Shown here: one piece after another, positions 29,707 through 33,328 of the stretch
How the letters are laid out: each line of letters begins with the position of its first letter
Numbering within the stretch: the stretch's first letter is position 1
From: an uncultured Pelagibacteraceae bacterium
GTDB lineage: Bacteria > Pseudomonadota > Alphaproteobacteria > Pelagibacterales > Pelagibacteraceae
Assembly (NCBI GenBank): GCA_902596325.1
Contig: CACJTN010000006.1
Coordinates: forward strand, 1-56,723
Length of the DNA stretch: 56,723 nt
Direction of reading: 5' to 3'
Notes under the pieces: generated by a model
Seen by the model: only the letters and a program-made list of their open reading frames with translations
What the model was told of the DNA's origin: nothing
The model's database searches: none
Translations under genes and position numbers: made by a program

Positions 29707-30399
29707 ATGATATTTAATCAATTATTTGATGAAAAATCTTCAACCTACACTTATATTATTTCTAGTGGAGAGGGTCGTGAAGCTTTAATTATAGACCCAG
29801 TTATTGAACACACTGAGGAGTATCTTAAAATTTTGGAAAATCTCAAACTAAAATTAGTGAAAGTTATTGATACACATATTCATGCTGACCATATAACGGC
29901 ACTAAATGAGTTAAATAAAAGGACAAGCTGTGCAAGAATTATGGGAGAGAACTCAAAATCAGAGGTAATAGATTTAAAAATAAAAGATAATGAAAAAATT
30001 AAAATAGAAAATATTGAACTTAAAGCAATGTATACCCCGGGTCATACTGATTGTTCTTATAGTTATCTGATGAATGATAGAGTTTTCACAGGAGATACAT
30101 TATTAATTAATGGTACAGGTAGAACAGATTTTCAAAATGGAAGCTCATATGATGCTTATGATTCACTTTTTAACAAACTATTAAAACTTCCTGAAAATAC
30201 TCTTGTATACCCAGCGCACGATTATAATGGGAAAAAATTCTCAACAATTGAAAATGAAAAAAATAATAATCCTAGATTACAAGTAAAATCTAAAGAAGAA
30301 TATGCAGAAATAATGCAAAATCTTAATTTAGCTAATCCAAAAATGATGGATATTGCTGTACCTGCTAATGTTAAGGGACTTACTTTAGACCAAATCTAG
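29707..30399 (+). CDS. ETHE1-like persulfide dioxygenase/MBL-fold hydrolase
   Basis: 230 residues, metallo-beta-lactamase fold. Metal motif THIHADHIT, GHTDCSYSY, FTGDTLLINGTGRTDFQNGS and a final PAHDYNG are the ETHE1/blh type. ETHE1 oxidises glutathione persulfide to sulfite. The ATG at 29707 is chosen over the upstream frame because it starts the conserved IFNQLFDEKSSTYTYII. It is divergent from the peroxiredoxin and immediately upstream of a Cys-rich peptide and cysE. A glyoxalase II role is less likely. Confidence 0.87.
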   Translation: MIFNQLFDEKSSTYTYIISSGEGREALIIDPVIEHTEEYLKILENLKLKLVKVIDTHIHADHITALNELNKRTSCARIMGENSKSEVIDLKIKDNEKIKIENIELKAMYTPGHTDCSYSYLMNDRVFTGDTLLINGTGRTDFQNGSSYDAYDSLFNKLLKLPENTLVYPAHDYNGKKFSTIENEKNNNPRLQVKSKEEYAEIMQNLNLANPKMMDIAVPANVKGLTLDQI

Positions 30400-30446
30400 T
30401 TAAAATTATAAGTTGTATTTAAAAATATTATAATTATATATTCCTC

Positions 30447-30566
30447 ATGGTTTGCAATAATCAAAAATGTAAATGTAAAAATTGCACTAATGATAAGTGT
30501 GCTTGTGAACATAACGATAATTGTGTTTGTAAATCAAAATCCGATTGTTGTTGTTGTAACGACTAA
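30447..30566 (+). CDS. Metallothionein-like 39-residue Cys-rich peptide
   Basis: A short frame ATG 30447 to TAA 30564-30566 encodes 39 residues with 12 Cys: C3, C8, C10, C13, C18, C20, C26, C28 and C34-C37. CxC pairs and a terminal CCCC run are typical of metallothioneins. The peptide is rich in Lys, Asn and Asp and has no aromatic residue. It sits in the 198-base spacer between the persulfide dioxygenase-like gene and cysE. No strong Shine-Dalgarno is visible, and there is no matching named family I can assign. Metal binding is inferred. Confidence 0.6.
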   Translation: MVCNNQKCKCKNCTNDKCACEHNDNCVCKSKSDCCCCND

Positions 30567-30597
30567 AATTAAATTTAATTAAATCTATTAAATAATT

Positions 30598-31182
30598 ATG
30601 AATGAATTTTTAGAATCTATAATAAAAAGAGATCCAGCTGCTAAGTCAAAACTATCTGTGATACTAACTTATCCAGGTGCAAAAGCAGTGTTCATGCATA
30701 AAATTGCAAATTTTTTTGCAGTTGCAAAGTTTGATTTGATAGCACGAATAGTATCTCAATTTTCAAGATTTATGACTGGAATTGAAATTCATCCAAAAGC
30801 TAAAATTGGAAAAAATTTATTTATTGATCATGGTATGGGGGTTGTAATTGGAGAAACATCAGATATTGGGGATAATGTAACAATTTATCATAACGTAACT
30901 CTTGGAGGAATTTCACCTAGTATAAATTCTGAAAATCAAAGGGAAACTAAAAGACACCCTACTCTTCATGATTATGTTGTTGTTGGTTCTGGAGCTCAAG
31001 TACTTGGACCTATTGTAGTTGGGAAGAATGCTAAAATTGGAGCAAATGCTGTAGTGACTAAGAATGTTCCAGAAAATGGAGTTATGGTCGGAATCCCAGC
31101 AAGAAATGTTGGAACAGCCACTGAAGAATTTAAACCTTATGGTATAAGTGACGAGGAAAAAAATGAAGAATTTTCAGAATAA
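30598..31182 (+). CDS. cysE: Serine acetyltransferase
   Basis: Makes O-acetylserine for cysteine synthesis. 194 residues, left-handed hexapeptide-repeat acyltransferase. [41 protein letters not shown] and KRHPTLHD are diagnostic CysE motifs, and the end holds [22 protein letters not shown]. It is short compared with ~270-residue enteric CysE and lacks the long N-terminal helical part. It overlaps the start of cysK by 20 bases, so the pair is coupled and likely forms the cysteine synthase complex. Confidence 0.93.
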
Positions 31183-32164
31183 TTTTGTTTCAGGAATTGG
31201 AAATACACCTTTAATTAAATTAAGGGCTGCATCTGAAGTAACGGGATGTAATATTTATGGTAAAGCTGAATATCTTAATCCAGGGGGATCAGTAAAAGAT
31301 AGGGCAGCGTTAGCTTTGATAAAAGATGCCGAGGAGAAAAAATTAATTTCTAAGGGTGGTACTATTGTTGAGGGCACAGCTGGCAATACTGGAATTGGAC
31401 TTTGTCTTATTGGAAATTCAGTAGGTTATAAAACAGTAATTGTTATGAATGATAATCAAACACAAGAAAAAAAGGATATGCTAAAAAACATGGGCGCTGA
31501 GTTAAAATTAGTTCCTCCTAAACCATACAAAGATGATGGTAATTATGTAAAGGTTGCAGGTAGACTTGCTGATGAACTTAAATCATCAAACAATCATGGA
31601 GTAGTTTGGGCTAATCAATTTGATAATACTGCTAATCTAAAAGGACACTATGAAAGTACAGGTCCTGAAATCTGGGACCAAACAGACGGAAAAGTTGATG
31701 GGTTTGTTTGTGCATCTGGAACTGGTGGAACAATAGCTGGAGTGAGCTCATATTTAAAAGAAAAAAATAAAGATGTTAAAATTTATTTATCTGATCCAAC
31801 AGGTTCTTCTCTCTATAACTATATAGAAAATGGCGAACTTAAAAGCGAGGGAGGATCAATAACAGAGGGGATTGGATCAAGTAGAGTTACAGCAAATTTT
31901 GCGGAAGCTAAAATCGACGGTGCTTTTTCCATAAGCGATAATGAGTCTTTGCCTGTTTTATTTGATTTAATTGAAAATGAAGGTTTAAGTCTTGGAACAA
32001 GTTGTGGAGTAAATATTGCTGGTGCAATTAGATTAGGTAAAATATTAGGACCAGGTAAAACAATTGTAACAATCCTTTGCGATAAATCAGACAAATACAA
32101 CTCTAAGATGTTTAATAAGAAATTTTTATTGGAAAAAGGGCTTCCCGTACCTAGTTGGATATAA
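31163..32164 (+). CDS. cysK: Cysteine synthase A (O-acetylserine sulfhydrylase)
   Basis: PLP enzyme combining O-acetylserine with sulfide to give cysteine. 333 residues. GNTPLIKL start, PLP-Lys motif [23 protein letters not shown] and [14 protein letters not shown] are all family hallmarks. The GTG frame at 31148 is less likely than the ATG at 31163. It is coupled to cysE by overlap. In a SAR11-like cell that relies on reduced sulfur this pair would capture sulfide; the persulfide dioxygenase next door could compete for it. Confidence 0.94.
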
Positions 32165-32553: not shown

Positions 32554-32934
32554 ATGGAAGCAAAAGATATTGTAAAAAAAGGTTACGAATGTTTCGGAAA
32601 AGGTGACATGGAAGGTTTAATGTCTCTTATTCATGATGACATTGAATGGACTTTTCCTGGAAAGGAGGGTGTTCACCCACTATCAGGTATACATAAAGGT
32701 AAAGAAAATTATGTAAAAGCATTGTCAAAAATTCCAGGGATATGGTCTAACTTTCATGTTAAACCTGATTGGATGATTAGCGAAGGTAATAAAGTTTTTG
32801 TAAAAGTCGATGCATCAGCGGATGGAATGGAAAATACAATCTTTGGTCATTATCATGAGGTTCAAGATGGAAAGTTAATTAAATTTATTACATTTGACGA
32901 TACTTTAAGTATGGCAAATGCAATGAAAAAATAA
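32554..32934 (+). CDS. SnoaL-like small protein A
   Basis: 126 residues, SnoaL/NTF2-like cone fold. The block FGKGDMEGLMSLIHDDIEWTFPGKEGVHPLSG followed by HKGKENYVKALSKIPGIW is typical. No catalytic set can be assigned. The next protein repeats almost the same layout, so these are tandem duplicates. A strong AAGGAG site precedes the ATG. SnoaL/NTF2 folds bind small hydrophobic ligands or act as isomerases/epimerases; function here is unknown. Confidence 0.85.
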   Translation: MEAKDIVKKGYECFGKGDMEGLMSLIHDDIEWTFPGKEGVHPLSGIHKGKENYVKALSKIPGIWSNFHVKPDWMISEGNKVFVKVDASADGMENTIFGHYHEVQDGKLIKFITFDDTLSMANAMKK

Positions 32935-32944
32935 GGAGTTAAAA

Positions 32945-33328
32945 ATGGATGTTAAAGAACAAACAAGAAAAGCATATGAGCTTTTTACTAAAGGTGATAT
33001 GGAAACTTTTTTCAATGAAATGATTGATGATAATATTGTATGGACATTTCCAGGCAAAGAAGGTGTTCATCCATTATCAGGGGTGCACAAAGGTAAACAA
33101 GCTATGATGGCTGCGATGTCAAAAATTCCAGCAATCTGGCCAAATTTTCATTTAAAAATTTTAGACATGATCAGTGAGGGTAACAAAGTATTTGTTAGAG
33201 TTCACGCAACCGCTGATAATATGGATACTATATTTGGTCATTATTTTGAATCAAGTGATGAGGGAAAAACTAAAGTCATGATGACTTTTGATGACACTCT
33301 AAGCATGTTTAATGCGATGAAAAAATAA
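32945..33328 (+). CDS. SnoaL-like small protein B
   Basis: 127 residues. WTFPGKEGVHPLSGVHKGK and MISEGNKVFVRV are identical or nearly so to protein A, as is the end FDDTLSMFNAMKK. The two proteins share about half their residues by eye. The gene starts 11 bases after the first, with AAGGAG before its ATG. A third NTF2-like member lies at 35085 with a weaker match. Duplication followed by divergence is the simplest explanation; ligand unknown. Confidence 0.87.
   Translation: MDVKEQTRKAYELFTKGDMETFFNEMIDDNIVWTFPGKEGVHPLSGVHKGKQAMMAAMSKIPAIWPNFHLKILDMISEGNKVFVRVHATADNMDTIFGHYFESSDEGKTKVMMTFDDTLSMFNAMKK

Follow-up and report, generated by a model that had tools for sequence, protein, structure and literature searches.

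SAR11 bacteria rank with the most abundant groups of marine bacteria, and a very short, Cys-rich reading frame ahead of cysE in one of their genomes raises the question of whether it is a gene and, if so, what its product does. The frame lies in a window of 56,723 nucleotides (the whole stretch of DNA that was analysed) from an uncultured Pelagibacteraceae bacterium, the source genome of which is 828 kb long and 64.5% complete. Its 39 codons translate as MVCNNQKCKCKNCTNDKCACEHNDNCVCKSKSDCCCCND, followed by a stop codon; 12 of the residues are Cys, arranged in CKC, CAC and CVC pairs and a terminal CCCC. Among the 516 window ORFs of 20-80 aa, the runner-up is 60 aa long with 8 Cys. Sixty dinucleotide-shuffled versions of the window had a top Cys count per ORF of 4-8, never more. 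Translation and shuffles therefore bear out the first-pass annotation, which had described a 39-residue, 12-Cys ORF with CxC pairs and a terminal CCCC. A chance ORF is ruled out by the shuffled windows together with conservation across genomes.

Regarding this conservation, single-sequence searches covered 397 genomes of the same family and 61 near relatives, with the window's own genome counted in both sets, and yielded 35 usable loci with 31 distinct peptides once four weak false matches (L009, L010, L033 and L038) had been removed; these four were excluded before alignment A1 and the counts. The consensus of A1 is MACxNxKCKCTNCxNDxCxCDGxKxCxCKPExxxCCCNK. A1 matched 33 of the 397 family genomes at E ≤ 0.1, reduced to 32 by leaving out a partial match with an internal stop (G114, E 0.0475); these 32 matches are full-length, with best E-values from 3e-16 to 2.5e-8. 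Among family genomes at least 90% complete, 16 of 140 have an A1 match, and the carriers belong to four genera (g1, g6, g7 and g17). The order sample gave 35 matching genomes out of 297, of which 25 were already known and 10 were new, all within the same family. The class sample (385 genomes) gave, apart from the window's own genome, three weak partial matches (E 0.005-0.025), which were not counted, and the phylum sample (299 genomes, E ≤ 0.01) gave no match except the window's own genome. A scan of genome_contigs across 84,980 species, which was seeded by one conserved pattern and would therefore miss members lacking it, returned 125 stretches, 86 of which were confirmed; the best 80 of these 86 were kept, and all of them come from Pelagibacteraceae, Pelagibacterales or Pelagibacter. 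The peptides of L061 and L062 are identical to that of the window. A phage or mobile origin was rejected, as 227 pattern stretches in viral_contigs gave no confirmed member and the phage records gave no match.

The peptide belongs to a family of 36-43 aa with 11-12 Cys that has no match to known families. A Pfam scan of the window peptide and 31 members returned no family at E ≤ 10, and the NCBIfam scan gave two single-member matches, put down to chance; searches of PDB sequences gave weak Cys-rich matches to mucin and LDL-receptor-type repeats (best E 0.12). The PF02069 (Metallothio_Pro) profile gave nothing over its cut-off in 30 genomes and not even a weak match at the peptide gene, its three weak matches all lying elsewhere; in 14 control genomes four matched, one of them over the cut-off. 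As the bias filter of HMMER can hide Cys-rich matches, a distant tie to a known family may have escaped these searches.

Conservation of the frame and of the Cys spacing had been proposed as a check in the first-pass annotation. Both are kept in relatives, so the objection that the frame might not be conserved falls, and, judged by conservation, the peptide gene is genuine. The 115 pooled loci comprise 80 distinct ORF sequences, each of which contains 11 or 12 Cys. The 11 Cys columns shared by the 31 distinct 39-codon sequences are invariant, with 0 non-synonymous changes, and this holds alike for the six N-terminal and the five C-terminal Cys; TGT and TGC swap freely at these codons (2102 summed pairwise synonymous differences), and the non-Cys columns are loose (pN/pS 0.62). 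Overall pN/pS by length class, taken from pairs with pS of 0.05-0.6, was 0.14 for 36 aa, 0.16 for 38 aa, 0.33 for 37 aa and 0.39 for 39 aa. Selection, as read from these codons, acts on the Cys of the peptide. The 36-aa clade differs by a three-residue deletion between C20 and the Cys that follows it and by an extra Cys at position 15, giving a total of 12; in one 36-aa member (L039) the Cys at position 3 is replaced by Tyr. Over 64 distinct peptides, the Cys fraction is 0.305, aromatic residues are absent from 58 peptides (7 in 2422 residues), and His occurs 21 times, 18 of these in the 19 peptides of 36 aa. The family thus combines small size, about 30% Cys in CxC/CxxC/CC motifs and few aromatics, as metallothioneins do, and represents a class of genes that length-limited gene callers likely overlook.

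Features in and around the peptide gene, with positions in the window
Feature	Position	Strand	Evidence
MBL-fold protein, persulfide-dioxygenase-like (ETHE1/Blh type)	29707..30399	+	PF00753; phmmer to PDB chains
-35-like element TTGTAT, TTG at -34 from ATG	30413..30418	+	TTG position in relatives' upstreams
-10-like element TATATA (4/6 to TATAAT), ends 6 nt before ATG	30435..30440	+	TATAAT match in relatives' upstreams
Candidate metallothionein-like peptide, 39 aa, 12 Cys	30447..30566	+	ORF translation, conservation, shuffle test; probably leaderless mRNA
AT-rich spacer, 31 nt, peptide to cysE	30567..30597	+	No terminator call, SD or consensus RNA structure
cysE, serine O-acetyltransferase	30598..31182	+	NCBIfam TIGR01172 212.8 bits (cut-off 210.65); NF041874 223.1 (150)
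cysK, cysteine synthase A	31163..32164	+	NF007989 515.5 bits (cut-off 387); PF00291; overlaps cysE end

The placement of the peptide gene in a cysteine/sulfur block, as annotated earlier, is confirmed (see the table): an ETHE1-like gene lies upstream, and cysE, supported by NCBIfam, is followed by cysK. For the upstream gene, the label persulfide dioxygenase-like stands insofar as ETHE1 is among the closest solved relatives (phmmer against PDB recovered persulfide dioxygenase ETHE1, 4chl, and BpPRF, 5ve3-5ve5, with 4ysb as the best match), but the gene reaches no NCBIfam cut-off, the best being TIGR03413 with 114.1 bits of the 200.8 required. In the best 80 of the 86 confirmed loci, cysE is the next gene downstream in 78, a position expected of a leader peptide, and a persulfide-dioxygenase-like gene lies upstream in 77 of those 78. 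At most loci, cysE and cysK share the orientation of the peptide gene and follow it at a short distance. The complete order is found by ORF call in 75 of the 80 loci, and in two more (L072 and L074) the cysE ORF is uncalled and its start was found by pattern, giving 77. The pattern search located a cysE start in 77 of the 80 loci, 25-38 nt after the peptide stop, and missed L083, L112 and L129, the first of which has cysE by ORF call.

In L070, a divergent FAD-oxidoreductase-like gene is followed by the peptide, cysE and msrB, and in L112 and L129 msrB comes after the peptide and cysE is absent; the persulfide dioxygenase gene is no neighbour of the peptide at any of the three. The msrB genes of these loci carry PF01641 (SelR), and the L112 oxidoreductase carries PF01266 and PF01571. 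L112 and L129 lie in genomes G329 and G285, which together with G361 make three genomes in all; here (loci L030, L032 and L027) the peptide stop lies 3 nt before msrB and all Cys are kept. Whole-genome searches of 30 genomes missed cysE only in these three and in the peptide-free, 99%-complete G129, and found cysK in none of the three, although the cysK search had no positive control and the assemblies are 70-80% complete. Retention of the peptide before msrB in three genomes in which neither cysE nor cysK was detected suggests that it persists after losing its link to cysE. A peptide-cysE-msrB block in genus g7 seems to have undergone loss of cysE, so that the peptide now stands 3 nt ahead of msrB. 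Among peptide-free genomes, cysE was matched in 21 of the 22 searched; at seven of these loci cysE begins 14-37 nt after the upstream gene, at 13 the 1.5 kb before cysE do not contain that gene, and the remaining locus (L166) is truncated.

The first-pass annotation saw no clear ribosome site, and this observation extends to the relatives, as an SD-like tetramer at -18 to -4 occurs in none of the 74 distinct upstream sequences. SD-like sites are a minority in the window generally (13 of 58 ORFs of at least 100 aa). Examination of a non-redundant set of 24 of the 74 upstreams revealed a TTG at -34 in 19 and at -36 to -33 in 23, compared with 9 of 58 window ORFs for the latter range. The best column for TATAAT over the 24 upstreams is -12, where the mean match is 4.04 of 6, against a shuffle maximum of 3.38 and a mean of 2.19 for window ORFs. 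A TTG at -36 to -33 paired with a -10-like hexamer of at least 4/6 at -13 to -11 is present in 23 of 24 upstreams and in 5 of 58 window ORFs of at least 100 aa; with a hexamer of at least 5/6, the counts are 13 of 24 and 2 of 58. The window's own peptide promoter passes the 4-of-6 test and fails the 5-of-6 test, and the window has a perfect TATAAT at 30429-30434. Information content exceeds the threshold obtained by shuffling at columns -49 to -47, -45 to -43, -36, -34 to -32, -27, -17, -13 to -9 and -1. Against a promoter counts a generic sigma-70 scan (9 of 12), which placed no site at the peptide promoter, with 3.2 expected by chance. A promoter-like element about 6 nt from the ATG is conserved. 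With TTG and a TATAAT-like hexamer so near the ATG, the transcription start probably coincides with the AUG or lies no more than about 6 nt from it. A leaderless mRNA is thus probable and would explain the missing ribosome site.

Farther upstream, many relatives have a GCGACAA-like box at -49 to -43 (window 30398-30404), some 10 nt ahead of the -35 TTG. The box, which could serve some regulator as an operator, is kept where the upstream gene differs (L018, L025 and L032), but the window's own copy is degenerate. A search for a shared operator elsewhere in the window gave a next score of 14.4, against 19.1 for the peptide promoter, a sequence also represented among the training upstreams; some of these upstreams score poorly themselves (minimum -5.7). 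In six SAR11 loci without the peptide (L141-L144, L147 and L154), a TATATA is found near the ATG of cysE itself; SAR11 transcripts may therefore often have a short 5′ leader or none.

Considering these features together, we regard it as fairly probable that the peptide is metallothionein-like and metal-binding and that its gene is the first of a peptide-cysE-cysK transcript. This reading is founded on invariant, spaced Cys throughout the peptide, few aromatics, and retention in genomes without detected cysE or cysK. RNA polymerase would begin on the AUG or a few bases away from it, giving a message that is translated without a leader. The thiolates of the CxC/CxxC/CCC motifs would bind Cu(I) or Zn/Cd(II), the peptide folding around these ions and buffering them in the cytosol. 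With 11-12 Cys per peptide, the cysteine cost is high, and co-transcription with cysE-cysK would meet it by supplying the cysteine that a peptide of about 30% Cys consumes. Several points count against a metal-binding function: the neighbours are cysteine and sulfur genes instead of metal genes, there is no sequence tie to any known metallothionein, and a terminal CCC(C) beside cysE is equally expected of a leader peptide. The earlier term metallothionein-like holds as the preferred reading of a conserved Cys-rich peptide, but not as a match to the bacterial metallothionein family PF02069.

MymT, a copper metallothionein of Mycobacterium tuberculosis, is a short Cys-rich peptide. The SAR11 peptide resembles MymT in this respect, which need not reflect common ancestry. 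A role in copper detoxification is ascribed to MymT, and metal binding by Cys and His to the His-rich metallothioneins of Pseudomonas, in PMC7387436. With members of PF02069 (SmtA, BmtA/PmtA), the SAR11 peptide shares small size, abundant Cys, CxC pairs and few aromatics; it differs in its length of 36-43 aa, few His, 11-12 Cys and terminal CCC. The genomic setting was assessed in 50 SAR11 genomes, 25 with the peptide and 25 without it (for G022, G029 and G033 of the latter, absence was judged by single-sequence search alone), the window's own genome standing outside the set. Neither a P-type ATPase (PF00122) nor a CDF exporter (PF01545) was found at E ≤ 1e-5 in any of the 50, and all 14 control genomes were positive for each. 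The metallothionein-like reading gains plausibility from the lack of both exporters; as peptide-bearing and peptide-free genomes lack them equally, this describes a setting and not an association.

Mycobacterial polycysteine-encoding leaderless short ORFs reportedly act as cysteine-responsive attenuators (Canestrari et al. 2020). Such control is covered by a review (PMC9031893) and was proposed earlier (PMC4633059); in these two sources, the ORFs are leaderless, Cys-rich and ahead of sulfur or cysteine genes, with a C-terminal Cys cluster in one of them. The SAR11 gene has the same anatomy, being a short Cys-rich ORF, probably leaderless, with a Cys run at its end and its stop shortly before cysE, and could be a cysteine-responsive leader for cysE-cysK, the peptide itself being functionless. 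At low cysteine, the ribosome would slow on the Cys codons, chiefly those of the final CCC(C), thereby raising cysE-cysK expression through translation or transcription. Many clades have a weak AT dyad after the stop (38 distinct spacers, folded singly, gave a mean z of -0.6, with 39% below -1), but the spacers share no consensus structure: 0 pairs were found in alignment A2, which comprises 21 hand-picked loci, the L093 piece stopping before the cysE ATG and the L084 piece starting after the CCC run. No U-tract terminator was found, with 0.0 expected by chance; none of 77 loci has an SD at cysE to hide, and Rfam gave no match in 30300-30800. Structure-free coupling or Rho-dependent control between the peptide and cysE is possible. 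Invariance is as complete among the N-terminal Cys as in the terminal run, and the spacing is fixed save in the one clade with the three-residue deletion; unlike in the mycobacterial ORFs, the Cys of the SAR11 peptide are distributed over its full length at conserved intervals, and the peptide persists before msrB in the three incomplete genomes without detected cysteine genes, where cysteine control of msrB is conceivable. We consider a pure leader function, the most serious of the alternatives, somewhat unlikely; if true, a type of control known from mycobacteria would have an equivalent in a distant group. Both functions could also reside in one leaderless poly-Cys gene, with the product buffering metal and stalled translation metering cysE-cysK, so that stalling at low cysteine would make thiol supply track the demand of the metal buffer. 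This dual role appears unlikely; if true, it would constitute a self-metering metallothionein operon in place of metal efflux in streamlined ocean bacteria.

Two further alternatives were considered. A regulatory uORF of the CruR/CutF type would sense metal, the nascent peptide binding copper through CxC and controlling translation or Rho termination before cysE. CruR (DUF2946) provides a precedent, being described in PMC9426467 as a copper-responsive uORF with CXXC and a RAPP arrest motif that heads predicted copper-homeostasis operons, and the SAR11 gene is likewise a first-gene short ORF with Cys motifs. However, CruR as outlined there uses CXXC and a C-terminal RAPP, whereas the SAR11 peptide has 11-12 Cys, its alignment contains no RAPP, and the genes downstream serve cysteine and not copper; such sensing is highly improbable here. 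Alternatively, with the persulfide dioxygenase, cysE and, in g7, msrB as neighbours, the Cys could carry persulfides or hold thiols in reserve for redox reactions. The persulfide-dioxygenase-like gene upstream in 77 of 80 loci agrees with such a sulfane-sulfur or thiol buffer, as does msrB (SelR), adjacent or one gene off in L070, L112 and L129. Those same three loci lack the dioxygenase as a neighbour, and the fixed CxC/CxxC spacing would exceed the needs of a thiol store; a sulfur buffer is quite improbable.

A metal-binding peptide in some SAR11 lineages, if the metallothionein-like reading is true, would change how metal tolerance and ecotypes are read in this group. Searches of the literature for metallothionein with SAR11 or Pelagibacter, including the available text of PMC4161860, gave no described SAR11 metallothionein, and the word is absent from PMC4771312, which deals with trace-metal acquisition in SAR11 and Roseobacter. 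Few detoxification systems are attributed to Pelagibacter in PMC4161860, on the basis of Pfam-profile searches; the present peptide is matched by no Pfam profile.

Elsewhere in the window, two genes after cysK, two adjacent and similar SnoaL-like ORFs (PF12680) occupy 32554-33328 and are likely a tandem duplication.
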